Shown: piece by piece, positions 19,310 through 36,433 of the stretch
How the letters are laid out: each line of letters opens with the position of its first letter
Position numbering within the stretch: the first letter of the stretch is position 1
Assembly (NCBI RefSeq): GCF_963664135.1
Contig: NZ_OY760905.1
Location: 2,382,736 to 2,446,735, forward strand
Direction of reading: 5' to 3'
DNA: 64,000 nt
Origin: an uncultured Acetobacterium sp.
GTDB taxonomy: Bacteria; Bacillota; Clostridia; Eubacteriales; Eubacteriaceae
The notes under the pieces: model-generated
Seen by the model: the letters and a program-made list of their open reading frames with translations, nothing else
What the model was told of the DNA's origin: nothing
The model's database searches: none
Made by a program: the position numbers and the translations under genes

Positions 19310-20668
19310 TTGAAAAAGAATGAAGTGATTGAATTAACGATAGAGGGATTTAATTTCCCCGGCAAATCCTGGGGAATGCATGGCGAAAAAAAAGTCGTCA
19401 TGAAAAACGGCCTGCCCGGTCAAAAGGTATCGGTCAACATAGCCAAGAAACGTAAGAAATTTGAAGGCCGGATCCTCGAAGTACTGGAAAAAGCTCCCAA
19501 TGAAATTGAAGCCGCCTGCGATGTGTTTGCCAAATGCGGGGGCTGTACCTATCAGAACCTGCTCTATGAAGAACAGCTCAAGCTTAAAGAAAGCTATGTC
19601 TTAAACCTGCTGGAGCAGGCCGGGATAGCGGGCTATGCCTATGAGGGGATTGTCCCCAGTCCGGAAGTTTTTGGTTACCGGAACAAGATGGAGTATTCCT
19701 TCGGCGATAACGAAAAAGATGGGCCCCTGATGCTGGGGCTTCACGAACAGGGCAGCTTCTATAATATCGTCAAAACCGATGGCTGTAAGATTACTGACGA
19801 CGATTTTAATGCGATTCAAACGGCGGTGCTGGGATATTTTGCCCAAACCGGGGATACCTATTTTCATAAACGCAGCCACGAAGGTTTTTTACGACATCTG
19901 GTAGTGCGCAAGGGCAAACACACCGGCGATTTACTGATTAATCTGGCGACGACCACCCAGGGAAATCTGGATGAAGCGGCCTTTGTCAAATGCCTGTTGG
20001 ATCTATCGCTTATCGGCCAGATCCGGGGAATTCTCCATACCCAAAATGATGGCATCGCCGATGTGGTCAAAGCCGAAACTGCGAAAATTCTACACGGCGA
20101 AGATAAAATTGAAGACAAGATTTTGGGACTGACCTTTGAAATCACCAGCTTTTCCTTTTTCCAGACCAATACCTTAGGAGCAGAAAAACTCTACGCCGTC
20201 GTCCGGGATTTTGTCGGTCAGGATCAGAATGAGGTCATTTATGATTTATACTGCGGCACCGGCACCATTGCCCAAGTGCTGGCGCCGGTTTCTAAAAAGG
20301 TGGTCGGCATTGAACTGGTTGCCGAAGCCGTTGAAGCTGCCAAAGCCAATGCCACCAAGAACGGCCTGGATAACTGTCAGTTTATCGCCGGTGACGTGAT
20401 GGTAGAGGTGGCCAATCTGCACGATCAAGCCGATGTAATTATTTTAGACCCACCCCGGGATGGTATCCACCCCAAGGCGATCTTTAAAATTTTGGATTTT
20501 AAACCCAAGGTGTTTGTGTATGTGTCCTGTAAGGCGACATCGCTGGCTCGAGATCTGCCGTTTTTTGTGGCGGCGGGGTATGAGGTGAAGAAGGTGAAGT
20601 GTGTGGATATGTTTCCGCATACTGGGCATGTCGAGACCGTTGTGTTGATATGTCGCAAAGATACCTAG
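19310..20668 (+). CDS. rlmD: 23S rRNA (uracil(1939)-C(5))-methyltransferase RlmD-like
   Basis: A RumA-family enzyme of 452 residues. An N-terminal TRAM-like domain is followed by the Fe-S cysteines (CDVFAKCGGC), the SAM motif DLYCGTGTIAQ, the DPPRDG motif and the catalytic cysteine in VSCKATS (C407). Start is TTG 19310, with TAAGGAG six bases upstream; no ATG fits. The last 120 bases are rich in GTG/TGT codons, unlike the body of the gene, and the accessory island begins directly behind. The 3' end of rumA-type genes is a known integration target of Firmicute mobile elements, so the tail may have been supplied by the island. Confidence 0.92.
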   Translation: MKKNEVIELTIEGFNFPGKSWGMHGEKKVVMKNGLPGQKVSVNIAKKRKKFEGRILEVLEKAPNEIEAACDVFAKCGGCTYQNLLYEEQLKLKESYVLNLLEQAGIAGYAYEGIVPSPEVFGYRNKMEYSFGDNEKDGPLMLGLHEQGSFYNIVKTDGCKITDDDFNAIQTAVLGYFAQTGDTYFHKRSHEGFLRHLVVRKGKHTGDLLINLATTTQGNLDEAAFVKCLLDLSLIGQIRGILHTQNDGIADVVKAETAKILHGEDKIEDKILGLTFEITSFSFFQTNTLGAEKLYAVVRDFVGQDQNEVIYDLYCGTGTIAQVLAPVSKKVVGIELVAEAVEAAKANATKNGLDNCQFIAGDVMVEVANLHDQADVIILDPPRDGIHPKAIFKILDFKPKVFVYVSCKATSLARDLPFFVAAGYEVKKVKCVDMFPHTGHVETVVLICRKDT

Positions 20669-20685
20669 AAATCCTTGATTTTACG

Positions 20686-20743
20686 CACTTTTTCAAGCAT
20701 ATGGTGTTCACTCCAAATGGGGGAAATGTGCTTGAAAAGAGTG
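20686..20743. repeat. Inverted repeat at the island left edge
   Basis: CACTTTTTCAAGCA (20686-20699) and TGCTTGAAAAGAGTG (20729-20743) are complementary with one extra base. They lie 17 bases after the rlmD stop and may be part of an integration site or a terminator stem. Confidence 0.5.
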
Positions 20744-20826
20744 TTCAAAATGAAATCCATGTAAGTGTGGGAATAGAACTCGTCGTGGTAGACATGTCCT
20801 CAAATGGCGTGATTACTGGATAAATT

Positions 20827-20864
20827 GCACTATTGGCTGTAGAAAGTCTGATAGTGCTTTTTTT
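20827..20864 (+). terminator. Terminator at the island left edge
   Basis: GCACTAT (20827-20833) pairs with ATAGTGC (20851-20857) and is followed by seven T residues. Confidence 0.75.
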
Positions 20865-20878
20865 ATGCTCAAAATCGT

Positions 20879-21058
20879 CAGTATAGAAGGAAATTATATA
20901 TAAATTTTGAGAGCCACCCAGTTACTATTATTTAAAATTAGTTCCTAGATTGATACCCAACGGTCATTGTACAAGCGGTATCATCACGACCTAGACAAGT
21001 CGCTAAAAGGTCTTATTTTTATGCCCGTTTTTAGGCAGAAGAAAGGAAACAGTCAATT
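20879..21058 (+). promoter_or_regulatory. Leader/attenuator-like segment, copy 1
   Basis: Shares with 31303-31460 the order CAGTATAG, an AT palindrome (here with one T missing, 20891-20908), GACCTnnAnAAGTC, a TATTTTTATnCCC block and a purine-rich ribosome site. In this copy GACCT and AGGTC can form a hairpin before TTATTTTT, suggesting an attenuator upstream of the next gene. Such leaders are common before genes of integrative elements in Clostridia; that link is an inference. Confidence 0.5.
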
Positions 21059-21097
21059 AAAGCAGTGCAAATTGAACTAAGAAAGGAACGAGAAAAA

Positions 21098-21406
21098 ATG
21101 AGTACAGAAATCAAAACACTAGACGGTTGGTGTGAATTTGCAGACCGCACCGGAAAAGAAAGCATTTATGATTATTTGAATTTGGGGGATATTGTGTCAG
21201 AGGATATCGTGGATAATTTTAGGGATATGTTACCACCAAGAGCCATGTCACATGGATATCTTCAATTAGGCGAAGCATACGACCATGTTTATGACATTGA
21301 CAAAAGATTAAGAGCCATTTATATGACCTTTGCTAAATGTGACGGTCAGTGGCGGTATTATGGTAATTGCTTTGATTGGGAAACTGTTGATAAGAGTTGG
21401 AGATAG
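21098..21406 (+). CDS. Hypothetical protein of the island
   Basis: A 102-residue acidic soluble protein beginning MSTEIKTLDGWCEFADRTGK. It contains many aromatic and acidic residues (SHGYLQLGEAYDHVYD), no membrane helix and no catalytic motif that I recognise. ATG 21098 is preferred to an upstream in-frame start because GAAAGGAACGAG lies just before it. Position behind the leader segment suggests it is the first cargo or accessory gene of the mobile element. Function unknown. Confidence 0.6.
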   Translation: MSTEIKTLDGWCEFADRTGKESIYDYLNLGDIVSEDIVDNFRDMLPPRAMSHGYLQLGEAYDHVYDIDKRLRAIYMTFAKCDGQWRYYGNCFDWETVDKSWR

Positions 21407-21455
21407 CCGAAAGGCTTTATTTTTTTTGCCCAAAATCAAGAAAGGTTGTGTTGTT

Positions 21456-21671
21456 ATGTGTAAATTTCGGAGAAAACCAGTCGGACAATACTGTTCCTGC
21501 TGCCGAGAATGTTCGCTATACTTAAACACTTGCATTCCCATTGCCATAGGTGGTAATATGACAGAAGAATGAAATTTTGATTTTTGCTGTTATTGCCCTG
21601 ATTATTCAGAATGTATGGATATATGGGGGAAGGTTGTTCTTGATTGTAAAGTTGATGAATTATGCTTGTAA
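21456..21671 (+). pseudogene. Cysteine-rich small protein interrupted by in-frame TGA
   Basis: From ATG 21456 the frame encodes 38 residues with CSCCRECSLYLNTC, then TGA at 21570-21572. The same frame continues for 32 codons with a second cysteine cluster, FDFCCYCPDYSEC, before TAA at 21669. Both halves have matching composition, so the original gene was probably 71 codons long. Either the TGA is a nonsense mutation (for example from TGG), or it is read through or decoded. I see no hairpin immediately after it that would clearly mark a SECIS, so decay is more likely. Confidence 0.5.
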
Positions 21672-21731
21672 AGATTTAATTCGCTCAGTCAATATTGCCG
21701 TTCACTTAGCCTGTTGAATCAGGTGTTAATA

Positions 21732-21857
21732 ATGTGCCTTAATAACCATCGTTTTCCCGACAATGAAGAGCTTGGAGAAATAAAGCTAGGAAATCAAGGG
21801 TTTGGAGTATACGAGTACAGTATTTACGCTAATCTTACGCCAAATGATGTATGTTAA
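21732..21857 (+). pseudogene. Small ORF remnant
   Basis: A 41-codon frame (MCLNNHRFPDNEELGEIKLG at the start) ends at TAA 21855. The same frame stays open after the stop and runs into the next gene at 21933, giving WCRVQFVRIDDEKFHYNEMN. This suggests a gene that was cut or mutated in the middle. No good ribosome site is seen. Function unknown. Confidence 0.3.
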
Positions 21858-21932
21858 TGGTGTAGGGTACAATTTGTACGCATAGATGATGAAAAATTTC
21901 ATTATAATGAAATGAATTTATGGAGAAGAAGT

Positions 21933-22403
21933 ATGACAACTGTGGAAATATATTTTTTTTACAAAGATAAGAAAAACATTTCGTGTCCACTAACTGAAGC
22001 ATTAATCAAGGAAGGATACCAGCAAGAAAGAGGTGGATATATAGATTTTGCTCATGAAAAGGGCGTGGAGGTAGATTATACTAAGGCAAAGCCGTCTCAG
22101 TGGTGGCACCTGATAGAGTCGTATTGTAATAGAACTGCATCTAATATCGAATTTAGTAAAACGATAAAATGCGGTGAACTATATTTTTGGATGGCTGAGG
22201 TATCAGGATGCTTTAGTGAAGAAGAGTTAATGCAGTTAAAGGATAAAGCATTAGAAAGTGCAATAAAATTTAATCGAAGAAATAAGAAATTGCCACCCAT
22301 GAAGACTGCATCAAGTAACTTATTGATGAGAGATGTTTGCTTTGACAGACTCAAAAGATGTATAGAGAACAATTATCGAGAAGCAAAAAAAGATAGAGAA
22401 TGA
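21933..22403 (+). CDS. Hypothetical protein, 156 aa
   Basis: A soluble, charged protein with a Lys/Arg-rich C-terminus (residues 110-156) and an aromatic-rich middle (SQWWHLIES, ELYFWMAEVSGCF). ATG 21933 has GGAG seven bases upstream and is preferred to the in-frame ATG at 21912. No known domain was recognised. It ends 33 bases before the start of the Ntn-hydrolase-like gene on the same strand, so the two may be functionally coupled, for example as adaptor or inhibitor; that is speculation. Confidence 0.55.
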   Translation: MTTVEIYFFYKDKKNISCPLTEALIKEGYQQERGGYIDFAHEKGVEVDYTKAKPSQWWHLIESYCNRTASNIEFSKTIKCGELYFWMAEVSGCFSEEELMQLKDKALESAIKFNRRNKKLPPMKTASSNLLMRDVCFDRLKRCIENNYREAKKDRE

Positions 22404-22436
22404 TTCCTTAAAACTTGCAAAGGAGGTATGAAAATA

Positions 22437-23270
22437 ATGACAATGCTAGCATCGTGGATTTGTCATGATACACATGGACCAACATCCGCATATATTGTCG
22501 CAGATAGTAGATTTAGTACTTCAAGTTCTGTGAATTTCGATTTTGGAAAAAAGGTATTTGCTTCTAAAAGTTTCCCAGAATTGTTTGGTTATGCAGGTGA
22601 TGTATTGTTTCCATCGGTTGTTCTCTCACAAATTGTAGAAATGATAGATAGTGGTATACTATTAAATGAAAAAATGAGATGTGAAGAAAAAAACAGTATC
22701 ATTTTTGAAAGGATTTGTAATTCGCTTTTAAAATATCAGGATATTCTTGGTAATGGCGTGGTTCAGATAATGCATATAACGAGAGATACATGTTTTGAAA
22801 AGTATCCTATGTTTTATGAATATATATTAACTTGGACAAAATCTTCTGCATTTTCTTGGGAAAATGTTAAACTTCCAGCAGAATCGGGGGTCTTAGGGGT
22901 CTTAGAGGTCTTGGGTTCTGGGCGTAGGGAATTTCATGAAAATTATAATAGATATCAGGGTGGAATAAACAAATCAACTAGTAGAAATGTTTTTCATTGC
23001 TTTATGGATACGCTTGAAAATATCAAGGATCCTTTTTGTGGGGGAGCACCTCAATTAGTTGGTTTGTATAGAAAACCATTTACAGGAGGCATGAGCTATG
23101 GTATTTTGTACAAAGGCAAGAGATATTTTCTTGGAATGGAGATTCCTAAAGGTTCTTCATTTGATAAAGTTGAATGGCGTAATGAGTTGTTTGAAATATG
23201 CGATGGTGATACAAGAAAAATTGCAGATGGAGCAATGAAACAAGCAGACTGTTTACGTCATATTTACTAA
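22437..23270 (+). CDS. Proteasome-like Ntn-hydrolase candidate
   Basis: A 277-residue protein whose N-terminus follows the proteasome beta-subunit plan. With start at ATG 22437, Met removal would expose Thr (TMLASW...). AYIVADSRFS corresponds to the AxDSR strand, FGKKVF places a lysine about 33 residues from the Thr, and LFGYAGDV resembles the GxxGD loop. The AAAGGAGG at about 22419-22426 touches ATG 22428 but is ten bases from ATG 22437, so ribosome spacing independently selects the start that puts Thr second. The C-terminal half has no recognised domain. If active it would be a threonine-nucleophile hydrolase; substrate unknown. Confidence 0.6.
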   Translation: MTMLASWICHDTHGPTSAYIVADSRFSTSSSVNFDFGKKVFASKSFPELFGYAGDVLFPSVVLSQIVEMIDSGILLNEKMRCEEKNSIIFERICNSLLKYQDILGNGVVQIMHITRDTCFEKYPMFYEYILTWTKSSAFSWENVKLPAESGVLGVLEVLGSGRREFHENYNRYQGGINKSTSRNVFHCFMDTLENIKDPFCGGAPQLVGLYRKPFTGGMSYGILYKGKRYFLGMEIPKGSSFDKVEWRNELFEICDGDTRKIADGAMKQADCLRHIY

Positions 23271-23278
23271 TGGCAACT

Positions 23279-23352
23279 CCCTAGACTCCGGTTCTGTCGG
23301 AGTGCGAGGTGCTGTCGTTAGGCTGGAGATTGCTCCAGCTTAGCTACTAGGG
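23279..23352 (+). ncRNA. Compact multi-stem RNA candidate
   Basis: Outer arms CCCTAG (23279-23284) and CTAGGG (23347-23352) enclose CTCCG/CGGAG (23286-23290 with 23298-23302) and GGCTGGAG/CTCCAGCT (23321-23328 with 23333-23340, ATTG loop). This forms a three-way-junction-like fold of 74 bases, eight bases after the stop of the Ntn-like gene. GC content is far above the surrounding AT-rich island. No T run follows, so it is not a plain terminator. RNA function is inferred from structure only. Confidence 0.45.
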
Positions 23353-23563
23353 TTATATAGATTATTTCCTTTATATACTAAAAAGAAATGGACAGGCTGT
23401 GGCAAAGATAATTATGCTATAGCTTTTTTATTTTAAAAAGACAATGAATAATATGTTTTAGAAATGGAATACCCAAAACTTAAGGATTGATATCGATTTA
23501 TAAATCCCTATAAATCAAGGGTTTGGTGGGTGTCATAACTTAGGTTTATAAATATAGTAACTG
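23353..23563. other. Intergenic stretch without a gene
   Basis: AT-rich sequence with no supported ORF. It contains a direct echo of CTATAAATC and ATAAATCCC around 23500-23520, a weak GCTATAGC-T run near 23425, and ends at a strong terminator. Confidence 0.4.
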
Positions 23564-23591
23564 GAAGGTAGAAATACCTTCTTTTTTTTTT
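23564..23591 (+). terminator. Strong terminator before the recombinase
   Basis: GAAGGTA pairs with TACCTTC over a GAAA tetraloop and is followed by ten T residues. Confidence 0.92.
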
Positions 23592-23614
23592 GCGAATTTT
23601 TAAGGAGGTGGTGC

Positions 23615-23712
23615 CAAAAAGCATACACATATAATGGGACGTTCCATAAGTGAATGTCTATAGTTTATGGGACTGGATAACAGTCCTTTTTAGTGGTTTC
23701 AAAAAGTATACA
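23615..23712. promoter_or_regulatory. Repeat-rich region upstream of the serine recombinase
   Basis: Direct repeats CAAAAAGCATACA (23615-23627) and CAAAAAGTATACA (23700-23712) flank an inverted repeat GTTCCATAAG / TTTATGGGAC (23641-23650 with 23664-23673). Closely spaced repeats in front of a resolvase gene are typical of res sites and operators. No binding data exist; the assignment is positional. Confidence 0.45.
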
Positions 23713-23744
23713 TTTTGGTACAGAATATGAAAGGAGAGTTTTTT

Positions 23745-24371
23745 ATGAAACGATATGGATATCACAGAACATCTACAAAGGAACAGCATCTGGACAGAGG
23801 TATTAAAGAAATTGAGAATTACTGCAATAGTAACAATCTGGAATTAGAAAAGATTTATACTGACCAACAGACTGGAAAAAACTTTAATCGACCGAGGTAC
23901 CAAGTCTTAAAGGAAGATGTGTTGAGGAGCGGTGATGAATTGATTATTTCAGAAGTTGACCGGTTAGGAAGGAATAAACAGGATACCTTAAAAGAATTGC
24001 AGCATTATAGAGATAATGGAATCCGTGTGAAGATTCTGGAACTGCCAACAACGTTGATAGATGTATCAAAGATGGATAATTCAATCGCTCAGATGATAAT
24101 GGAAACCATTAATAATATGATGATTGAATTATATGCAGCAATGGCGCAGGCAGAAGTTGAAAAGAAAGAAAAACGTCAAAAGGAGAGTATTCAGGCAAAG
24201 AAGGACAGAGGAGATTGGGATAATTATGGAAGACCGGCTGTTATGTCGTTAGATGCATTTTCTCGAGAGTATAGGAAGGTAACAGATGGTGAGCTAAGAC
24301 CATTTCAACTGATGAAAGAATTAGGCATACATAAATCGACATATTATAGATATGTTAGTAAAATTAAATAA
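23745..24371 (+). CDS. Serine recombinase (resolvase/invertase family)
   Basis: A 208-residue small serine recombinase. The catalytic domain begins YGYHRTSTKEQ (nucleophile S10), followed by DQQTGKNFNRPRY and ISEVDRLGRNKQDTL with the conserved Arg residues, then helix E and a C-terminal HTH ending QLMKELGIHKSTYYRYV. The length fits a resolvase/invertase rather than a large integrase. ATG 23745 with AAAGGAGAG seven bases upstream is preferred over the in-frame TTG at 23715. It may resolve or invert DNA of the island; no integrase or conjugation genes are seen nearby. Confidence 0.9.
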   Translation: MKRYGYHRTSTKEQHLDRGIKEIENYCNSNNLELEKIYTDQQTGKNFNRPRYQVLKEDVLRSGDELIISEVDRLGRNKQDTLKELQHYRDNGIRVKILELPTTLIDVSKMDNSIAQMIMETINNMMIELYAAMAQAEVEKKEKRQKESIQAKKDRGDWDNYGRPAVMSLDAFSREYRKVTDGELRPFQLMKELGIHKSTYYRYVSKIK

Positions 24372-24680
24372 TTATTGAATAATAGTTAATAACAATTTGA
24401 TTTTTGGTTGATATTGTTCAGATAAAAGAATATAGTAGAATTATTCGGGATACTACTATGTGCACTAGATGAAGGAGTCGGACAGAATGTCACACAGTGA
24501 TTTATATATTGCTGATAATTCTACAGAGAATCAAAACGTTATGATAATAATTTCAAGAATGGGAATTTCAGAAGGATATTTATCTATCCTGCTGAGAAAG
24601 CCTTTGACAGAAGAGATGAGGCAGAAAGTTCACTGGAAGCATTGAAAAGTATTCTTTCTGAATAAGGAGAGGAGAGGAAT
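24372..24680. other. Gap between recombinase and kinase-helicase operon
   Basis: Holds the promoter region of the defence-like operon (AT-rich, TATTGTTCAG...TATAGTAGAATTAT around 24410-24445) and a decayed small ORF (24487-24665, listed separately). The purine-rich AGGAGAGGAGAGG at 24666-24678 is the ribosome site of the kinase-helicase gene. Confidence 0.45.
24487..24665 (+). pseudogene. Frameshifted small ORF
   Basis: ATG 24487 opens 52 codons ending at TGA 24643. Another frame over the same DNA reads NNFKNGNFRRIFIYPAEKAF, then DRRDEAESSLEALKSILSE, ending at TAA 24663, and looks more protein-like, but it has no start codon and begins after a stop near 24515. A lost or gained base near 24515-24540 would join the two. 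Its stop lies just before the kinase-helicase ribosome site, so an intact form would have been the first gene of that operon. Confidence 0.35.
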
Positions 24681-27600
24681 ATGGCAACATATATTGCAGA
24701 TAGATATAGACTTAAGAAAAAAGATATTGGTGGTGGAAATATGGCGTCTATTCATCTGTGTGAAGATACAGATGTTGATGATGACGAAGTGGATAGCTCC
24801 GTCATCATCAAGATGTTTAATAAACTTAATATAGGTGATGAGGATTTACAAAAGCAGGTTTTTAATCGTGAGGTAGAATCATTAGATAAGCTTAATCATA
24901 AAAATGTTGTTAAGATTTTAGACCGTGGCTATGATGAAGGATTTAAGGCTTTCTTTATTGTACTTGAATATGTTCAAGGGAAAACATTCAAGGAAGCATT
25001 TGAAGACATTTGCAGGTATGACTATGCCCAAAAGCTTGAACTTATGGAGCAAGTAGTAGATGGAATTGAATATTTGCACAAGAAAAATATCATCCACCGT
25101 GACTTAAAACCATCTAACATTATGTTTGATAAGGATGGAACGGTGAAAATTATTGATTTCGGAATTAGTAAATTGAAGGATACCTTTTATAGTGATTATA
25201 CTCTAGCTGGATTTGTTACGAAAAACTATAGTTCACCAGAACAAATGGCTAGAAAAACAATAACGAATCAGAGTGATATTTATTCATTGGGACTTATTTT
25301 TTACGAGATATTTATCTGTTCGTGCATAACAACTAGGGAGTCTATGGATGTAGGAAGCCTTCCAGCAGGTATGCAACGAATACTTATAAATATAACGCAG
25401 GAAGAACCTAAGCTAAGGTATGCAACAATTTCTGAACTTAAACGTGACCTTGAAAAAGAGCATAGTATTCTTGTTCAAGAAAAATTTATGAGTCTTGGTT
25501 TTACGAATACAGTAACAAAGCGACTATTAAATGATGGATATATTGAAAAAGAAGAAAATACTTTGGCAATGAATGTACTTGAAGAGGAATACTCGGGTAA
25601 GTGCTATATGTGGCCAGCAAAAAATCGTGAAACAGGTGAATTTGAGGGCTCATTTGAATTATATGGTCGTAGATTTCTTTCTATATTAAAATTTGACCAA
25701 AGAGATTCTTCAAGATTTACCATTATCAGTATGGTGTTTATTCCGGCGGATAGATTAATGATGAGAAAGGAATGTGGATATGAGATTCCTTATGGAATAA
25801 AGGTAAGTGGTGGCTCAGCGAGAATAAAAACAAAATCTGAAATTGATGCTCAAACAGTATGTGAAGAAGTGCTTAATCATGAAGCTGAATTTAATAGTCA
25901 GCGAAGTGATGATATGCACCTAAAAGATATTACAAGAAAATGGAGAGATATTCTTGAACTGGAGAAAAAACGGTTGAGCCAGGAGAAATTCACGCTAAAA
26001 TATAATAACTGTAAAATCAATGAGCAAGATGCTTCTCTGGAAATAGATATTGATACCAATAGAACATATGAATTGAATTACACTTCTGATGATATGCTTC
26101 AAATGACAACCAAAAAGAATATACATCATTATATAGATGTTGGTCGCATGAGAGAATGCTCTGATGGGCATATGGTAATTGATTTGACACCACAGGTTGA
26201 CTATTCAAATATTGCTTCTTCTGGCGAAATATCAATAAGTATGAGAATGGCAGAAATAGCTCTTCAAAGACAAAGTAAGGCATTGAAGAGTGTTCAATAT
26301 AAAGAAAATGTCAATCCAGAGATAAGCGAAATTATTTTTAATCCTGAAAAGGCAAGTTCAAAAAATAATTTGATTTTGACTGAGGAAGATTGTAAATCTA
26401 CAGAAATTGACAGGTCAAAATTGTTAAGTTTGGAAAAAGCATTATCATCAGATAACATGTTTCTGCTGCAGGGACCTCCTGGTACTGGAAAAACAACATT
26501 CATTGCTGAACTTGTATATCAGATATTACATAGTAATGATAAATTCAGAGGGAATCCTGATGCAAAAATTTTGATTGCATCTCAGTCACATGTGGCAGTT
26601 GACCATTCTCTTTCAAAAATTAAAAAGCTTATTCCTGATATTAAAATGATACGAGTTGGTATCATTGATAAAATGGCAGAGGCATCAAGGGATTATACAT
26701 TGGATATTTTCTGCAAGGAATGGACGCAGAAAGTAATTGAAAATTGTAAAATAGCTCTTACAAAGTATAAAGAGGAAATAGGGATTGATGATTCATTGCA
26801 GGAAAAGAATGGAATGATTTCTGAGATTGAAAGTATTACACAAGAAATCTCGAACCTGATGGAAGAATTAAAAGATGTTGAAACTGAACTTGAGAAGGTT
26901 AATGTACTTGATGCAAAATGGAAATTTGTAAATGATAAAATTTCATCTATGAAGAAGAAGGTATCGATTAAAACATCAGGAATCACAGAGGAACATTTAT
27001 CTAGGATAATTGATGAATTTACAGATAGTTTGTCAGGATTAAATGATAAATTGGCATCGATTATAGACGAGTCTATTGAATTATCAGAACAAAAAATAAC
27101 GTTGGAAGAAAGATACGCTGCAATAAATGAAAACATGGGTGTTAAAGGCCGAGAAGTAAATGAATGGAAAGAGCTTTTAGGGGTGACTTCTCAGGAAGAA
27201 TATTTACAAGTAAAAGATGATATTCAGAATTCACTTAAAGAGAATAAGAAGAAATATGCTACATATTCCAAAGTCGAAAGTCTTTGTAAAGAATGGCAGA
27301 AGAGAGTGACACTGGGAGATGGACTTATGCAGGAGAGCTTAGCTGATGCGACTCTTGTAGGTGCTACATGTCTTGGAATTGCAAGCTTGAGTGATGCTAT
27401 AGAGTTTAATTATGATTGGGTTATTGTGGATGAGGCAGGAAAGGCTACACCTCCAGAAATATTAGTCCCAATTTGTTTAGGAAAAAAGGTTGTTCTTGTT
27501 GGTGACCATAAGCAGTTGCCACCAGTAGTTGATGAAGCATTACTTAAATTACAGGATAAGGAACGAATGAGCATTCGTAAGGAAGACTTGGAGCAAAGCT

Positions 27601-28292
27601 TATTTGAATATCTGGAAAATAGATTAAATGGCGATTGCAAGAGCATATTAGATGAACAGTACAGAATGAATCCTGTAATTGGAGATTTAATCAGTGAACT
27701 CTTTTATGATGGACAATTGGTATCTAAAACATCTAGAGAAGAGAAAACAATACCGCTTAAAATGTATGAGGAGAAACCGTTAGTTTGGCTCACTACATCT
27801 GAGAATGCAGATAGAAGAGAAGAACGAATATCGGATTCTTATGGAAATTCATGTGAAGCGAAAATCATTTTTGAACAGTTATTGCTGATAGATGAAGAAT
27901 TGGGTGAGCAAAAATTTAAAAAGGAAACAGCGATTATTGCTGGATACCGTGGACAGAGAGATAAGCTGAATAGACTTTATGAGAGTAATTATAAAGTTAA
28001 ATTCCATAATATGACTGTGGAAATCAACACAGTCGATGCATTCCAAGGAAGAGAAACGGATATCGTCTTTTACAGCGTCGTAAGAAGTAATGAAGAAGGA
28101 AAGCTAGGATTTTTGAAAGATGTTCGAAGATTAAATGTTGCTTTTTCTAGAGCTAAAGAATTATTGGTTGTCGTAGGAGACCATCACTGTGCTCAAAAGC
28201 AGATTGAAGTAGCAGGTCAGGAAAATCCATTCGTAAGAATTATAAGATATTTGCGAAATAATCCAGATGACTGCTTGATGAAGGAGGTATAG
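24681..28292 (+). CDS. Ser/Thr kinase-SF1 helicase fusion (Mokosh MkoA-like)
   Basis: A 1203-residue two-enzyme protein. Residues 8-265 are an apparently complete Hanks-type kinase: glycine loop GGGNMA, VIIK lysine K44, HRDLKPSN (139-146), DFG (159-161) and SPEQM. After a linker (270-560) comes an SF1 UPF1/DNA2-like helicase: Walker A GPPGTGKT (598-605), DEAG Walker B (917-920), GDHKQLPP, EQYRMN (992-997) and a final AFQGRETD...NVAFSRAK block. A coiled-coil insertion lies at about 690-880. Kinase plus COG1112-type helicase followed by a PLD gene is the architecture of type I Mokosh. The next gene starts four bases after its stop and uses an AAGGAGG located inside this gene. Confidence 0.9.
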   Translation: MATYIADRYRLKKKDIGGGNMASIHLCEDTDVDDDEVDSSVIIKMFNKLNIGDEDLQKQVFNREVESLDKLNHKNVVKILDRGYDEGFKAFFIVLEYVQGKTFKEAFEDICRYDYAQKLELMEQVVDGIEYLHKKNIIHRDLKPSNIMFDKDGTVKIIDFGISKLKDTFYSDYTLAGFVTKNYSSPEQMARKTITNQSDIYSLGLIFYEIFICSCITTRESMDVGSLPAGMQRILINITQEEPKLRYATISELKRDLEKEHSILVQEKFMSLGFTNTVTKRLLNDGYIEKEENTLAMNVLEEEYSGKCYMWPAKNRETGEFEGSFELYGRRFLSILKFDQRDSSRFTIISMVFIPADRLMMRKECGYEIPYGIKVSGGSARIKTKSEIDAQTVCEEVLNHEAEFNSQRSDDMHLKDITRKWRDILELEKKRLSQEKFTLKYNNCKINEQDASLEIDIDTNRTYELNYTSDDMLQMTTKKNIHHYIDVGRMRECSDGHMVIDLTPQVDYSNIASSGEISISMRMAEIALQRQSKALKSVQYKENVNPEISEIIFNPEKASSKNNLILTEEDCKSTEIDRSKLLSLEKALSSDNMFLLQGPPGTGKTTFIAELVYQILHSNDKFRGNPDAKILIASQSHVAVDHSLSKIKKLIPDIKMIRVGIIDKMAEASRDYTLDIFCKEWTQKVIENCKIALTKYKEEIGIDDSLQEKNGMISEIESITQEISNLMEELKDVETELEKVNVLDAKWKFVNDKISSMKKKVSIKTSGITEEHLSRIIDEFTDSLSGLNDKLASIIDESIELSEQKITLEERYAAINENMGVKGREVNEWKELLGVTSQEEYLQVKDDIQNSLKENKKKYATYSKVESLCKEWQKRVTLGDGLMQESLADATLVGATCLGIASLSDAIEFNYDWVIVDEAGKATPPEILVPICLGKKVVLVGDHKQLPPVVDEALLKLQDKERMSIRKEDLEQSLFEYLENRLNGDCKSILDEQYRMNPVIGDLISELFYDGQLVSKTSREEKTIPLKMYEEKPLVWLTTSENADRREERISDSYGNSCEAKIIFEQLLLIDEELGEQKFKKETAIIAGYRGQRDKLNRLYESNYKVKFHNMTVEINTVDAFQGRETDIVFYSVVRSNEEGKLGFLKDVRRLNVAFSRAKELLVVVGDHHCAQKQIEVAGQENPFVRIIRYLRNNPDDCLMKEV

Positions 28293-28296
28293 AGAA

Positions 28297-29766
28297 ATGA
28301 CAATAGAAGAACTTGCCAAAATGAAAGCCAACTCAGTACCGAATTCAACTTTAGTGAAATATTATGAAGCTGGAATACCACAATGGCATATGGAAACTGT
28401 ATTAACGATGCTAAAGCCAAAGAAACTGTCTGTATTACAGGAATTTATTTTGAAATTTGTTTCTGCTGGAATAGATGATGTTTCTGATATATGTAGATTT
28501 CTAGGAATAAATGCATCAGCGGTTAATAATGCTGTTGCACTGCTACAAAAGGCAAGCCTCATTTCCGTAGATATTTTTCATTCTAAGTTAAAGCTTACAG
28601 AGAAGGGCGAAGAAGCTCTAAAGGAAGCTGCAACAATTGTTCCAGAAGATATTGAATATCCATTATATGTAGATGGACTTTTGGGAAATATTTATCTCGA
28701 TACTAGAAAATTGTATTCGGCAAAAGAATTGCGAAACTTTGAAATTAAGCCAATTAATTCAACGATTGATACACCAACAATTGATTATTTGGTTTATGAA
28801 GAAGTTAAGAGAGCTGTAAATTTATTCAAAAAAAATCATGCATATGAGCAGGATAGATTAGAAGGAGATTTACAGGAAGCTTCTTGTGTAAATAAAACAT
28901 ATGTCGAATATAAAAAAGTATTTGTTTTAGTTTTTATGAACAAGTTCGATGAGATTGAGTTCCAAGTGTACGATGGGACAACAAGAAACGATGAGTATAG
29001 TATTGAACTTCAAAAACAGTACAATAATAATTCGAAAGTTTTTGATTTCGATAGTAAAGAAGAAACTGGTCAGGAAGATACTAATTCGCTGATTAGTGTA
29101 TTACCTCAGGGAATAATTGAAAGTGCTAAATCATTTTCTTATAAAGATTCAACGTTAGAAAGAGAAATATCAAATTTAACCATTCAGCTTGATGCTATTA
29201 AAGAAAACAATGAGGATGATGAAGCGGAAAAAGAATCAGCAACTGAAAGAATTCGTTTCCTTGAAAAGAAGATAGACGAAATGAAAAATGAGCGTAAGGG
29301 AGCAGATAGGGTGCTGTCCACATATGACCATAGACCTTTGTTGCTTGATACTCTTGAAAACGCTAAGAATTCGGTTGTTATAGTATCACCATGGATAAAA
29401 TCAGGTGGACTTAATAATGAGATTCTTGGACGTATAGAAAAAGCTTTGCAACGTAAAACACAGGTGATTCTAGGATATGGAATTAGCGAAAAAGAGGACA
29501 ATGATAAATGGATATTGAGTCGTTTGGCTGATTTGCAAAAGAAACGGTATGGTCAATACCTTAAACTCGTTAGATTGAGTAATACGCATGAAAAAGTTCT
29601 TATAAAAGATAATGAGTATATGGTTATTACAAGTTTCAACTGGTTATCGTTTAAAGGAGACCCTAATAAAGGTTTTAGACAGGAAACTGGTTATTACACA
29701 GAATCTAAGGAAGCAATGAAACAAATGAAAGAAAATCTTTCAAACAGAATGGGGATTAAGTTGTAA
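28297..29766 (+). CDS. Winged-helix / PLD-family nuclease (Mokosh MkoB-like)
   Basis: A 489-residue protein. Residues about 45-105 form a winged-helix-like segment (FLGINASAVNNAVALLQKASLI...LTEKGEE), 270-335 a coiled coil, and 340-489 a phospholipase D domain with one HKD motif, HEKVLIKD (H431, K433, D438) followed by SFNW. A single HKD implies an active site formed by dimerisation, as in Nuc/Zucchini-type nucleases. It is four bases from the kinase-helicase gene, so both are made from one message. By analogy to Mokosh it would be the effector nuclease acting on RNA or DNA; the substrate is not deducible. Confidence 0.87.
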   Translation: MTIEELAKMKANSVPNSTLVKYYEAGIPQWHMETVLTMLKPKKLSVLQEFILKFVSAGIDDVSDICRFLGINASAVNNAVALLQKASLISVDIFHSKLKLTEKGEEALKEAATIVPEDIEYPLYVDGLLGNIYLDTRKLYSAKELRNFEIKPINSTIDTPTIDYLVYEEVKRAVNLFKKNHAYEQDRLEGDLQEASCVNKTYVEYKKVFVLVFMNKFDEIEFQVYDGTTRNDEYSIELQKQYNNNSKVFDFDSKEETGQEDTNSLISVLPQGIIESAKSFSYKDSTLEREISNLTIQLDAIKENNEDDEAEKESATERIRFLEKKIDEMKNERKGADRVLSTYDHRPLLLDTLENAKNSVVIVSPWIKSGGLNNEILGRIEKALQRKTQVILGYGISEKEDNDKWILSRLADLQKKRYGQYLKLVRLSNTHEKVLIKDNEYMVITSFNWLSFKGDPNKGFRQETGYYTESKEAMKQMKENLSNRMGIKL

Positions 29767-29779
29767 AGAGGGGGATTTG

Positions 29780-31174
29780 ATGGTATATATTCAATTGGAT
29801 GAAGACAAAATTCCTGTCGGTAACTTCTCATTCGTTTATGATATTACAGGAAACGAAGAATTGTTTGAAAAATTTTATGAAGCAGAAAAAAATCTAAAGG
29901 TAGATTATATGGACTTTGCTCATAAGATTAGGATGGCATTTGAAGCGTTTGCACTGTATGAGGAAGCTCAAAAGAGGAAAGAACTAGAAGTTTATTCTGA
30001 TGTTGAATTTTATGAGATTAAAGAGAGTATTATCGCTGAGATTAAGCAGCCAGCATCCGTTTTAAACTACAAGAATATAATAATTGCCCTTTGCGATGGA
30101 AGAGAAATGGGATTTTCTAAAATACTTTTGAAGTATTCATTCATTAGAAATACTTCATATGAAGAAGATGTAAGAAGAAAATTCAAAACTTTTATACGCT
30201 TCCTATATGCATTTGGTAGTGAAAGTTCTCATGAAAATGTATCTACGGATGCTAAATATTTGGCAAATAGGGAAAATTGTTTAAGAGTAGTGGGCTCATT
30301 TCATGACTTCCTGTGTGTCTATTACGGAGTGTCGAAAAAATACGATAGTACAATAGTACCGATTCGGGATTATGTTCCTGTACCAAAACAAGTTGTTGAT
30401 AAAATGGGGTTGGTGTTAGAAGTGGGGAAGTCACTCTATTTGAAAGAATGCAAAGGGAAAATTTCATATTACATTTTTTCAAGTGATATTGATGGAATTA
30501 GTCAGGGGCAAAGAAGAGATATTGATGTAATCAGTAAATTATGGGAAGATAATTTTAATGACCCGTCAAATGTTATAAGGCAAACTGAAAATATAAGTGG
30601 AAGTAATAGAGATTATAGGTTCCAAGTGTATTCGTTGCCTAATAAACCATTAAGATTAACAGACACTTTTCTGAAGTCTATTTCATTAGTTGAAAAAATG
30701 GATATAGTGACTGGGTTATGTAGAGGAGTAGAATCAATACATAATTATGAAACTCCGCTGTATCATAGAAATATTAACCCAGATGTATTTTATATTTTTA
30801 GCATTCGAGGAAAATACAAGCCATTACTGGCTAAGTTTGATTGTACAAAGGATTCAGCTGATTCAGCATTCACGGTTTTCCAAAATATTGAAAAGAAAGT
30901 TTTTAATCAGAATATAAATCATTTTTTTCCGCCAGAAGTTCTTAAAGCGAGCATTGGACAGGGCGTAGACTGGGAAAAAGCAGACATTTATTCACTTGCT
31001 AAGACAATACTATATATTCTTTCAGGAGAGATGATTGATGGAAATGAATGTATAGATACTATGGATAGTCTTGAAGTCGATGATGATTTAAAAATTGTTT
31101 TGATGGAGATGCTGGATGAAGAACCGGGGAACAGACCTGAATTAATTGAATTGTTGAACATCATTAATGCATAG
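29780..31174 (+). CDS. Pseudokinase with N-terminal helical domain
   Basis: A 464-residue third gene of the operon, 13 bases behind the PLD gene (GAGGGGG before ATG 29780; TTG 29777 is also possible). Residues 1-195 are mainly helical, with DFAHKIRMAFEAFALYEE and FGSESSHENVSTDAKYL, reminiscent of HEPN/DUF4145-like domains. Residues 290-460 follow a protein-kinase C-lobe, but the catalytic loop reads YHRNINPDVFYI (HRD Asp replaced by Asn) and the DFG position reads FDC, so it is probably inactive. It keeps WEKADIYSLAKTILYILSG. A sensor, scaffold or regulator of the upstream kinase is likely. Confidence 0.75.
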   Translation: MVYIQLDEDKIPVGNFSFVYDITGNEELFEKFYEAEKNLKVDYMDFAHKIRMAFEAFALYEEAQKRKELEVYSDVEFYEIKESIIAEIKQPASVLNYKNIIIALCDGREMGFSKILLKYSFIRNTSYEEDVRRKFKTFIRFLYAFGSESSHENVSTDAKYLANRENCLRVVGSFHDFLCVYYGVSKKYDSTIVPIRDYVPVPKQVVDKMGLVLEVGKSLYLKECKGKISYYIFSSDIDGISQGQRRDIDVISKLWEDNFNDPSNVIRQTENISGSNRDYRFQVYSLPNKPLRLTDTFLKSISLVEKMDIVTGLCRGVESIHNYETPLYHRNINPDVFYIFSIRGKYKPLLAKFDCTKDSADSAFTVFQNIEKKVFNQNINHFFPPEVLKASIGQGVDWEKADIYSLAKTILYILSGEMIDGNECIDTMDSLEVDDDLKIVLMEMLDEEPGNRPELIELLNIINA

Positions 31175-31227
31175 GTGTAAAATGATGTTTCAATGTCGTA
31201 ATTTCAAATAATGAATAATGTAAATAA

Positions 31228-31268
31228 GAGCCTGAATGGTAGGGAAACCTGTTGTCCGGGCTTTTTAT
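31228..31268 (+). terminator. Probable terminator of the kinase-helicase operon
   Basis: AGCCTG pairs with CGGGCT (one G-T pair) with further internal pairing (AGGGAAACCT), then TTTTTAT. Confidence 0.6.
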
Positions 31269-31302
31269 ATTATTGAAAAAAGTAACATAATGTTACAGTC
31301 GC

Positions 31303-31460
31303 CAGTATAGGCAAAATTTATATATAAATTTTTGGAACGAACCAAGTCAAAATGTTTAAAGTGAAAAAGTAGTTATTACCCCCACCGTCCCTGTATGGAG
31401 GGAAATTGACCTGAATAAGTCATAAAACTGTTCTATTTTTATACCCAAAATAGAAAGGAG
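31303..31460 (+). promoter_or_regulatory. Leader segment, copy 2, with 20-bp palindrome
   Basis: Related to 20879-21058. AAAATTTATATATAAATTTT at 31313-31332 is a perfect 20-bp palindrome; GACCTGAATAAGTC and TTCTATTTTTATACCC follow, then AGAAAGGAG. It now stands in front of a truncated ORF only. Confidence 0.55.
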
Positions 31461-31469
31461 TTGGGATGG

Positions 31470-31532
31470 ATGAAATATGTGCATTTAAAGAAGCAGCAAA
31501 TGACCAATGAATCAAATACTGTTTTTGAATGA
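31470..31532 (+). pseudogene. Truncated ORF cut by the RAYT-1 end
   Basis: ATG 31470 (AGAAAGGAG upstream) opens MKYVHLKKQQMTNESNTVFE and stops at a TGA that is the first triplet of the RAYT-1 terminal repeat (31530). The peptide resembles the start of small TnpV-like proteins of Firmicute transposons, though this is a weak memory-based match. The rest of the gene is not seen beyond the RAYT unit. Confidence 0.45.
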
Positions 31533-31565: not shown

Positions 31566-31618
31566 TCTCTATAAAACCATGGTATACTGCAAAATAACAA
31601 CAGGAGGTGAAATCAGAA

Positions 31619-32374
31619 ATGGCAAGACAGGCACGAGTTAAAAGTACATCAGGAATTTACCATGTAATACTGAAAGGCCTGGATGGACGAAATATTTTTT
31701 TGGATGACTCGGATCGATCAATTTTTATGGAAAAGCTCAATAAAGCCAGGGAAACTGGTGGGTTTCAGTTATATGCCTATTGTCTCATGGATAACCATAT
31801 TCATCTGTTAATCAAAGAAGGCGAAGAATTAGGTACCAGTATCAAACGGATTACAGTAGGTTATGTTCAATTGCACAACAATAAATACGGACGAACCGGT
31901 CATCTTTTTCAGAATCGTTTTAGCAGTGAAGCCGTCGAAGAGGAACAGTATCTAATGGCGGTGGTTCGGTACATTCACCGTAATCCCTTAAACGCCGGAA
32001 TGATTGCTCGATTGGAAGAATATCCATGGAGCAGTTATGAAAAAGTTATCCAAGCCTATCAGGAAAATTCGACTACACTTGATAGTGAGATCCTCAAAGA
32101 TTATTTTCCGACGGCTGCAGATTTTGTTCGTTTTACGGAGGAAGAAAATCAGGATGAATGTCTGGAAATCAATCAAAAAACCAGATGGTGTGATGCACAG
32201 CTTTCAGATATGCTGAAACAGAACAGCGAATATCAGAATCTGGGCGAACTGTCGGTTGAAAAGCGAAATCGGTTGATCAAACAGATTCAGCAGGAAACTG
32301 GCAGCAGTATTCGTCAATTGAGTCGGGTACTGAGACTGGGTAAGATGATGGTGGAACAGGCATTGAAGGGGTGA
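31619..32374 (+). CDS. REP-associated tyrosine transposase (RAYT), copy 1
   Basis: A 251-residue Y1/HUH single-strand transposase related to IS200/IS605 TnpA. The metal-binding HUH motif is H60-I61-H62 in CLMDNHIHLL, and the nucleophile is probably Y82 in GYVQLHNN, before GRTGHLFQNRF. The C-terminal region (about 195-250) contains a helical DNA-binding-like segment. ATG 31619 begins MARQARVKS and is preceded by CAGGAGGTG. It ends four bases before the right REP-like sequence. RAYTs process REP hairpins; the many REP-like copies nearby support an active or recently active enzyme. Confidence 0.92.
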   Translation: MARQARVKSTSGIYHVILKGLDGRNIFLDDSDRSIFMEKLNKARETGGFQLYAYCLMDNHIHLLIKEGEELGTSIKRITVGYVQLHNNKYGRTGHLFQNRFSSEAVEEEQYLMAVVRYIHRNPLNAGMIARLEEYPWSSYEKVIQAYQENSTTLDSEILKDYFPTAADFVRFTEEENQDECLEINQKTRWCDAQLSDMLKQNSEYQNLGELSVEKRNRLIKQIQQETGSSIRQLSRVLRLGKMMVEQALKG

Positions 32375-32878: not shown

Positions 32879-33287
32879 AATGGCAAAATCTAATTTGGTA
32901 AAACATGCCTATTCGAATGAAGACGTTTCAGGATGTTTTGTGCCTTGAACGAAATTTTTATTTGATTTGAGGAGTGACATATGGAAAATAATATTTCAAA
33001 ACAAGTCTTCGAAATACAATCGGATTTAAGACTTCCTTTTGAGCCATATGACATCGGGACATTTCGTTTGTCATACCTAATCATGATGATTATATATTTA
33101 ACGAATGAGTGCTTGATTAAAATGACATGACTTGCTATGGTATAATTGCTATTTCAAAATTATGAATACATAGTCGCAAAGACGAAGATTGAATATATTC
33201 ACAGATAGTGATTTAATTGCATTTAGGATTGCGACATAATACTTACTTATTAATAGTAAGTTGCTTTACGTAAGGAAGGGTTTAAAG
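32879..33287. other. Intergenic region with REP-like and related repeats
   Basis: Holds a degenerate GACGTTTCAGGATGTTTTG block (32922-32940) whose continuation TGCCTTGAACG recurs at 38835-38845, the REP-like 25-mer at 33049-33073, and a hairpin ACTTACT...AGTAAGT near 33241-33260. No gene supported. Confidence 0.5.
33049..33073 (+). repeat. REP-like 25-mer
   Basis: TGACATCGGGACATTTCG then TTTGTCA; two or three differences from the RAYT-1 left copy. Confidence 0.75.
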
Positions 33288-35625: not shown

Positions 35626-35677
35626 TATTGACAAAAACATGTTATACTGCAAAAAATAACAGAAGGTGAACGTTGAA

Positions 35678-36433
35678 ATGGCAAGACAGGCACGGTTTAA
35701 AAGCACAACCGGCATTTATCATGTAATACTGAAAGGTCTGGATGGACGAAATATTTTTTTGGATGACTCGGATCGATCAGTTTTTATGGAAAAGCTCAAT
35801 AAAGCCAGAGAAACGGGTGGGTTTCAGTTATATGCCTATTGTCTGATGGATAACCATGTTCATCTGCTGATTAAAGAAGGCGAAGAATTAGGCACCAGCA
35901 TCAAACGGATTACCGTTGGTTATGTTCAATTGCACAACAATAAATACGGAAGAACCGGCCATCTTTTTCAGAATCGTTTTAGCAGTGAAGCAGTCGAAGA
36001 GGAACATTATCTAATGAAGGTAATTCGGTACATTCACCGCAATCCCTTAAAAGCCGGAATGATTGCCCGATTGGAAGAATATCCATGGAGTAGTTATGAT
36101 AAAGTTATCCAGGGCTATCAGGGAAATTCGACTGCACTTGATAGTGAGATCCTCAAAGACTATTTTCCGACGGTGGTAGATTTTGTTCGTTTTTCGGAGG
36201 AAGAAAATCAGGATGAATGCCTGGAAATCAATCAAAAAACTAAATTGAGTGATGCACAGCTTACTGATATACTGAGACAGAACAGCGAATACCGGAATCT
36301 GGGGGAACTGTCTGTTGAAAAACGGAATCAGCTGATCCGACAGATTCAGCAGGAAACGAACAGCAGTATCCGTCAATTGAGTCGGGTATTGGGAATGGGT
36401 AAGATGATAGTGGAACAGGCATTGAAGCGGTGA
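35678..36433 (+). CDS. REP-associated tyrosine transposase (RAYT), copy 2
   Basis: A 251-residue paralogue of the 31619 gene with only scattered substitutions (for example HVH in place of HIH at the HUH motif, still a valid metal site). Y82 and the GRTGHLFQNRF segment are preserved, so the enzyme appears intact. AGAAGGTG precedes the start. High identity of coding and flanking DNA indicates a recent copy event. Confidence 0.92.
   Translation: MARQARFKSTTGIYHVILKGLDGRNIFLDDSDRSVFMEKLNKARETGGFQLYAYCLMDNHVHLLIKEGEELGTSIKRITVGYVQLHNNKYGRTGHLFQNRFSSEAVEEEHYLMKVIRYIHRNPLKAGMIARLEEYPWSSYDKVIQGYQGNSTALDSEILKDYFPTVVDFVRFSEEENQDECLEINQKTKLSDAQLTDILRQNSEYRNLGELSVEKRNQLIRQIQQETNSSIRQLSRVLGMGKMIVEQALKR

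Follow-up and report, generated by a model that had tools for sequence, protein, structure and literature searches.

The operon and its gene content

The window, a 64,000-nucleotide stretch of the genome of an uncultured Acetobacterium sp. (contig NZ_OY760905.1), contains three closely spaced genes reading in the same direction, here termed mkoA, mkoB and g3. Judged by their content, mkoA and mkoB are a type I Mokosh pair, a kinase-helicase fusion followed by a winged-helix protein with a phospholipase D (PLD) domain, whereas g3 encodes a HEPN-like domain joined to a pseudokinase. The original prediction, made for this locus from its letters, recognized the kinase-helicase and PLD genes correctly and overlooked the third.

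24681..28292, + strand: mkoA, 1203 amino acids (aa), ATG start; Ser/Thr kinase at about residues 5–260 and UPF1/SMUBP2-like superfamily 1 (SF1) helicase at about residues 570–1173
28280..28288, + strand: Shine-Dalgarno-like GAAGGAGGT, read from the sequence, within the 3' end of mkoA and 8 bases before the mkoB ATG
28297..29766, + strand: mkoB, 489 aa, ATG start; winged helix, coiled-coil-like linker and C-terminal PLD domain with one HKD motif at residue 431
29767..29774, + strand: Shine-Dalgarno-like AGAGGGGG, read from the sequence, between mkoB and g3
29777..31174, + strand: g3, 465 aa, start possibly the ATG at 29780; DUF4145/HEPN-like N-terminus and C-terminal pseudokinase

The mkoA product matched the PADLOC MkoA profile (PDLC03920) at 1e-234, with residues 3–1200 lying on positions 5–1107 of the 1112 in the profile. 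All three Pfam matches exceeded their cut-offs (Pkinase, 1.3e-41; AAA_11, 6.9e-46; AAA_12, 3.2e-50), and the motifs of the kinase (HRDLKPSN, DFG and the glycine-rich loop) as well as those of the helicase (GPPGTGKT and IVDEAG) are intact, in agreement with the predicted fusion of an apparently active kinase to an SF1 helicase in an open reading frame at these coordinates. The closest solved structures to the helicase by sequence in the PDB were those of NAM7/UPF1 (1e-41), with SMUBP-2 found lower down (1.8e-32).

Starting four bases past the end of mkoA, mkoB encodes a protein that matched the PADLOC MkoB profile (PDLC03922) at 2.4e-79 in two stretches, the first of which begins with residue 20 at profile position 3. 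The PLD domain was recognized by PLDc_2 (9.6e-7; 29.1 bits, cut-off 27). It contains a single HxKx4D motif at residue 431 and the sequence TSFN at 445, both invariant across an alignment of the window protein with four plasmid-encoded MkoB proteins (A3). Matches of the linker to coiled-coil models were weak and all below cut-off. The winged helix was likewise weakly recognized by name (Pfam MarR_2, 0.00099; wHTH-PRTase_assc, 0.00013; both under cut-off), and a PDB search with the A3 profile matched ZitR, a MarR-type regulator (0.0055). The predicted arrangement of two open reading frames four bases apart, the second with a winged helix and one HKD motif, thus agrees with the coordinates, the PLDc_2 match and the HxKx4D motif, and, weakly, with the names given to the winged helix. 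The winged helix had further been described as an extra feature of this nuclease, and this does not hold: because the region falls inside the MkoB profile and could be aligned in all five A3 proteins as well as in PLD-less relatives (A4; A3 against A4 by hhalign, 93%, 3.1e-7 across the winged helix), it is a standard part of MkoB, and we dropped the notion of a new addition.

The two profile matches support the proposed relation to type I Mokosh. Absence of a conserved helicase–PLD pairing would have spoken against it; the pair was adjacent in a Clostridia isolate (L034) and in all four plasmid loci examined (L015–L018), which were taken from 19 plasmid matches to mkoB.

The third gene encodes a putative pseudokinase with a HEPN-like N-terminus

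The g3 gene begins ten bases after mkoB. For its family we used an alignment of 11 members (A6), which omits L021 (genome G338), G032, G061, G638, G644 and 35 genomes of the order; genomes G403, G111 and G390 correspond to loci L039, L040 and L041 and were each counted once. Searched against solved kinases, the C-terminal half of the 11-member profile matched 599 sequences at E <= 0.01, the best being AAK1 (5.6e-12), and the pseudokinase MLKL as well as IRE1 and PKR were among the best 60 of these 599. The window protein alone matched the kinase part of MkoA in PADLOC (1.5e-11) and that of MAD6 (1.4e-9, below the cut-off of that model). Its catalytic loop reads HRN, and KFD stands in place of DFG. 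Across the family, none of the 11 proteins retains the catalytic Asp of HRD, and the Asp of DFG is missing from 10 of 11, the exception being L035 with DFR. Since the profile points to a kinase fold and these residues are missing, the C-terminal half of g3 is, as far as its sequence tells, a pseudokinase. In a kinase tree the 11 g3 pseudokinases were grouped on a single branch, separate from the 16 active-type kinases included (100/100), and we therefore dropped the idea that g3 is a recent duplicate of the kinase domain of MkoA.

The N-terminal half was assigned through the family. DUF4145 (PF13643) was matched at E <= 1 by four of the 11 members (best 1.3e-6); the homologue of L040 exceeded the curated cut-off (24.0 against 23.1) and that of L042 fell below it. 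The N-terminal positions of the g3 profile also picked out three HsdR-like open reading frames of about 1100 aa, and all three carry DUF4145 at their N-terminus (5e-9, 5.9e-12 and 3.1e-8). Compared profile to profile by hhalign, the N-termini of window-type and array-type g3 proteins matched at 89.9% (1.7e-6).

DUF4145 is a HEPN family; Rx4-6H is given as the RNase motif of HEPN domains, and DUF4145 is listed as mostly (80%) retaining it (PMC3710099). All 11 proteins of A6 have the His of a GNxxxH-like motif. The residue eight positions before it is Arg in six of seven array-type proteins and Lys in the seventh (L042); in all four window-type proteins it is Tyr, so that these keep the His and lack the Arg of Rx4-6H. 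The array-type Arg itself lies just outside the Rx4-6H spacing, and three of these proteins (L036, L038 and L039) have a further Arg that fits Rx6H. The HEPN-like domain of the arrays could thus have RNase activity, which is doubtful for that of the window protein.

Recurrence of the three-gene unit

A search of genome contigs yielded nine g3-family loci. In the Clostridia isolate (L034; CAJTDE010000040.1), mkoA, mkoB and g3 are intact and in the same order, with protein identities to the window of 79, 81 and 72%. The gaps between the genes are 4 and 9–10 bases in the two loci, and the flanking genes differ. A second relative (L033) has a g3 at 74% identity, on a contig that starts 170 bases before the gene. 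The homologue in L035 is more distant (34% identity); a kinase gene with HRD, of FHA type by eye, lies about 7 kb upstream, and no helicase was found in the stretch fetched around it (L035:257-10992). An Hsp70-like gene, read by eye, is also located there.

A kinase gene with a catalytic Asp accompanied g3 in all ten loci with visible neighbours (the window, L034 and L035–L042), in nine of them within the same array and in L035 at the distance given above; the L038 kinase reads NKD by eye. Separately, in L021:2830-9013 (G338) a g3-like, pseudokinase-looking protein of 529 aa overlaps a 1566-aa kinase-containing protein, and there is no helicase. This is another kind of system, possibly another use of the same g3-like partner.

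Four-gene arrays with g3 homologues

Seven loci (L036–L041 from the contig search and L042 from a search of the phylum) contain, in seven of seven cases and in this order, a g3 homologue, a separate kinase (273–287 aa), an SF1 helicase (1031–1139 aa) and an MkoB-like winged-helix protein, which lacks the HKD motif in every case. One example is the following.

L040:8101-15081: four-gene array with g3 homologue, kinase, SF1 helicase and winged-helix protein

The catalytic Asp is conserved in the array kinases (as HKD, HRD, or NKD in L038), some of which have DFD or DFN for DFG. The one array helicase that was tested matched MkoA at 5.6e-100, and three array winged-helix proteins matched the PADLOC MkoB profile at 1.6e-7, 5.3e-10 and 5.8e-13. 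Pairwise distances of the four proteins agree within the seven arrays (r 0.87–0.92, values reached by 1 to 6 of 5040 permutations), the pattern that joint inheritance of the genes would produce. Genes for zinc-ribbon-like and membrane proteins follow the arrays in L039, L040 and L041 (by BLAST) and in L037 (by eye). Just before the L040 array, a 140-aa protein (L040:7676-8095) resembles the HEPN-like N-terminus of the g3 homologue alone (39.7%, 2.3e-24).

No system name of their own was found for these arrays in PADLOC-DB 2.0.0 (2023) or in the literature searched, and within that scope they are apparently an unnamed sister family of Mokosh. With no HKD present and the Arg kept in six of seven, their HEPN-like domain may act as an effector RNase.

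A helicase tree separated nine fused kinase-helicases from the seven array helicases by a single branch (100/100) and placed the window and L034 among the fused Mokosh proteins, beside a cyanobacterial pair (81/85). L018, whose kinase loop reads HND, was included in the helicase tree only, and L024, L026 and L028 in neither the helicase nor the kinase tree. The arrays occupy a separate branch. By this placement the operon in the window is a genuine fused Mokosh, has g3 in common with the sister array family and so links canonical Mokosh to it. The g3 gene may either be ancestral and mostly lost, or have been recruited.

Distribution

Queried with g3, two of 61 relatives matched, the genome itself and, weakly, G032 (3.7e-4). 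In the class, six of 391 genomes matched: the genome itself, the array genomes G403, G111 and G390, the other kind of system in G338, and weakly G061 (3.3e-4), which gave no g3 or MkoA match on re-check and is probably a chance match. The A1 profile matched four of 398 genomes of the phylum, namely the genome itself, the array genome G521 and two with kinase genes (G638 and G644). With the A6 profile, matches came from 36 of the 67 genomes searched in the order, full length in the genome itself only; by their span, the matches in the other 35 cover the kinase half or the N-terminus only.

The MkoB model matched six of 391 genomes of the class at 1e-10, and three of 14 control genomes as well. 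In the stretches fetched from the other five class genomes (three of them on contigs < 8 kb), g3 did not adjoin MkoB. One array genome, G390, has an MkoB-model match and, on another contig, its four-gene array. Among 19 genomes of the genus, the whole of MkoA was matched in the genome itself only; G002 has a distant kinase-helicase (28–35%), the matches in 16 others are confined by their span to the kinase domain, and G015 gave none. The G002 locus (L056:8955-13600) encodes a 1077-aa kinase-helicase and an MkoB-like protein (PADLOC, 2.2e-35), with neither HKD motif nor g3. This pair lies downstream of a DNA methyltransferase gene (read by eye), and the MkoB-like protein of L027 likewise lacks the HKD motif; PLD-dead MkoB proteins may be a recurring form.

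Relatives of mkoB were found on 19 plasmids, all at < 60% identity. No match was obtained by tblastn with g3 and mkoB in 50,697 phage records or with g3 in 72,556 plasmids, and three viral-contig scans gave no relative, mkoA not having been searched in any of these collections. Following these searches with g3 and mkoB, carriage of the operon on known phages or plasmids was dropped as an explanation.

Chromosomal setting

The operon lies in a variable segment, defined by comparing the flanks with those of two congeners.

20639..31528, no strand: variable insert of about 10.9 kb, bounded by a conserved RNA methyltransferase gene and the gene of a REP-associated tyrosine transposase (RAYT); flanks compared with G005 (L069) and G001 (L070)

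Besides the operon, the insert holds genes upstream of it (21065-24371). Between the same flanks G005 has other content, including, after the RNA methyltransferase gene, one for an Avs4-like protein of about 1604 aa (L069:2812-7626, 4.9e-38). In G001, the sequence a few bases past the methyltransferase flank corresponds to window position 33277, and in G011 and G012 the upstream flank alone matched in the stretches fetched. GC content is lower in the operon (0.334) than in the window as a whole (0.418). Based on the one congener with a named, Avs4-like defence gene, we read the insert site as a defence hotspot.

Near the insert ends lies an imperfect direct repeat of 62 bases (71%; 20875-20936 and 31299-31360), the second copy of which has TTATATATAAATTTT as a palindromic core. 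As it is AT-rich and occurs in just two copies in the 15.5 kb scanned, it was not called an attachment site. A promoter scan gave 56 hits against 44.8 (standard deviation 7.4) in shuffled sequence, not clearly above it, and a terminator scan 5 against 3.0, with none between g3 and position 32000. Upstream, a 280-aa protein (22428-23270) resembles a proteasome-type Ntn hydrolase at its N-terminus by eye; it gave no match in Pfam, NCBIfam or PADLOC and no meaningful match in the PDB. Downstream, two Y1-type transposase genes (Y1_Tnp; 31607-32374 and 35666-36433) are about 90% identical in DNA and have more copies in the genus; the product of the first also reaches the NCBIfam cut-off for RAYT.

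Proposed mechanism and alternatives

Mokosh is said to degrade viral transcripts, and for Mokosh in general the helicase/PLD pairing has been likened to the piRNA pathway (PMC11291487). For the window operon we propose a helicase sensor, a kinase/pseudokinase switch and MkoB as the nuclease. The UPF1-like helicase would engage nucleic acid that is foreign or aberrant, phage transcripts being the likeliest target, and this engagement would switch the MkoA kinase domain. The g3 pseudokinase would dock on that domain as an allosteric regulator or a tethered substrate, keeping the complex off until stimulated. MkoB would dimerise, because with one HKD motif per chain two chains would form one active site, and would cut nucleic acid passed on by the helicase. 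In the window protein, the HEPN-like domain would be a dimerisation or docking part, given the Tyr where relatives have the Arg of the RNase motif. Two points lead us to favour a regulatory role of g3 towards the MkoA kinase: a kinase with a catalytic Asp stands in the same stretch at every g3 locus with visible neighbours, and the HEPN motif looks decayed where the PLD nuclease is present. Taken jointly, a type I Mokosh anti-phage system with three genes, seated at a variable chromosomal site and working by this mechanism, is in our judgement the probable reading, by a modest degree.

Several observations weigh against this reading. The intact trio is found in two loci only, the window and L034, with L033 truncated where its contig ends. 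As no g3 was seen at the other MkoB loci under study, the gene does not belong to Mokosh in general. The HEPN-like label of the window protein depends on its relatives and on profiles: it has no significant Pfam match of its own, DUF4145 included (SAS-6_N alone, 0.019), and hhalign of this protein alone against the array family (A5) aligned the kinase half only (245–464). The Arg/His pattern is alignment-dependent, the His being invariant in A6 and not listed as invariant in A7. RNA rather than DNA as the helicase ligand is suggested by the likeness to UPF1, but SMUBP-2 and DNA2 appear in the same PDB list. In the trees, the support beside the cyanobacterial pair is modest and this pair has an odd letter make-up, and long branches lead to L018 and L025 (helicase tree) and to L037 and the L035 kinase (kinase tree).

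The trio could instead be an ordinary two-gene type I Mokosh with g3 as an unrelated passenger gene, which we consider unlikely. The missing g3 at the other MkoB loci (L015–L018; L024–L028, three of them contigs < 8 kb; L056) would be explained in this way, and so would the helicase-free surroundings of the L035 homologue. A passenger would not, however, be expected in the same trio, order and tight spacing amid the other flanks of L034, nor at the head of a kinase/helicase/winged-helix array in seven of seven loci, nor ten bases behind mkoB with a ribosome-binding-like site in between. A different question is whether g3 would itself be a second effector, a HEPN-like RNase unleashed by the MkoA kinase in the manner of the kinase-KEN coupling of IRE1 and RNase L. 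Such an arrangement is suggested by a HEPN-like domain and a kinase fold in one chain, by Arg eight before the His in six of the seven arrays without HKD, and by the listing of DUF4145 as mostly (80%) keeping the RNase motif and of KEN as a HEPN domain fused to kinases (PMC3710099). The four window-type proteins, however, all have Tyr at the Arg position. The domain order is the reverse of that in IRE1 and RNase L, and a sequence match to KEN was not among the results. An RNase role of g3 may apply to the arrays most of all; for the window operon it strikes us as quite improbable.

Kinases and UPF1-like helicases also serve cellular RNA metabolism, and an operon for stress signalling or RNA quality control, similar to Mokosh but not anti-phage, would accommodate the UPF1-like helicase here as well as the L035 relative of g3 near FHA-kinase-like and Hsp70-like genes (read by eye). 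The near full-length matches to MkoA and MkoB stand against it, as do the strain-specific occurrence, with a whole MkoA in one of 19 genomes of the genus, the variable site occupied by an Avs4-like gene in a congener, and the low GC content; we give this explanation very little credence.

Comparison with known systems

The main value of the window operon is its link to the sister kinase/pseudokinase/helicase arrays. Both contain a g3-type pseudokinase with a putative HEPN-like N-terminus, an active-type kinase, an MkoA-like helicase and an MkoB-like winged helix, whereas the arrays encode kinase and helicase as separate genes, start with the g3 homologue, lack the HKD motif and in some cases have zinc-ribbon-like and membrane genes. 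Sharing all parts but the PLD nuclease, the arrays make effector and sensor separable by comparison, and they point to a defence family of Bacillota that is apparently unnamed and open to testing. As a tentative and rather speculative extension, the operon might be the link that reveals a superfamily of helicase defence systems under kinase control. Here an active kinase would be paired with a HEPN-like pseudokinase and the effector would have been swapped: PLD in the three-gene Mokosh with its decayed HEPN-like domain, and a HEPN RNase in the PLD-less arrays, which would then be a new, unnamed anti-phage system with a logic like that of IRE1 and RNase L.

The domain order of IRE1 and RNase L is, as said above, the reverse of that in g3. 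Through its family the window protein also resembles DUF4145 instead of KEN, with the catalytic Arg not in place. What they would have in common is a kinase fold and a HEPN-superfamily domain in one chain, KEN being treated as HEPN (PMC3710099). We regard this as analogy, not kinship. The kinases of BREX (PglW), MADS (MAD6) and PD-T4-6 resemble MkoA and g3 within the kinase fold only, and their partners differ from those in the window operon. Type II Mokosh (MkoC) has related SF1 helicase and PLD parts (MkoC, 1.9e-30 and 5e-20); it joins helicase and PLD in a single protein, whereas the window has two separate open reading frames and a kinase.

Type I Mokosh, reportedly first described by Millman et al. 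in 2022, consists of mkoA and mkoB and is not known to need a further gene. The window operon shares with it the kinase-SF1 helicase fusion and the adjacent, same-direction PLD protein with a winged helix; it differs in that about 150 positions of the MkoB profile PDLC03922 (387–540), within the PLD part, are absent from its MkoB, and in the added third gene. In the passages available of PMC11291487, PMC12278908, PMC10952713, PMC12839542 and PMC3710099 we found no description of a third Mokosh gene or of the four-gene arrays, and those of the Mokosh literature, including the first two, contain no account of what the kinase does. A conserved pseudokinase partner offers a direct handle on the role of the Mokosh kinase. 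By content, the locus holds a type I Mokosh pair together with a component that had been overlooked, g3.

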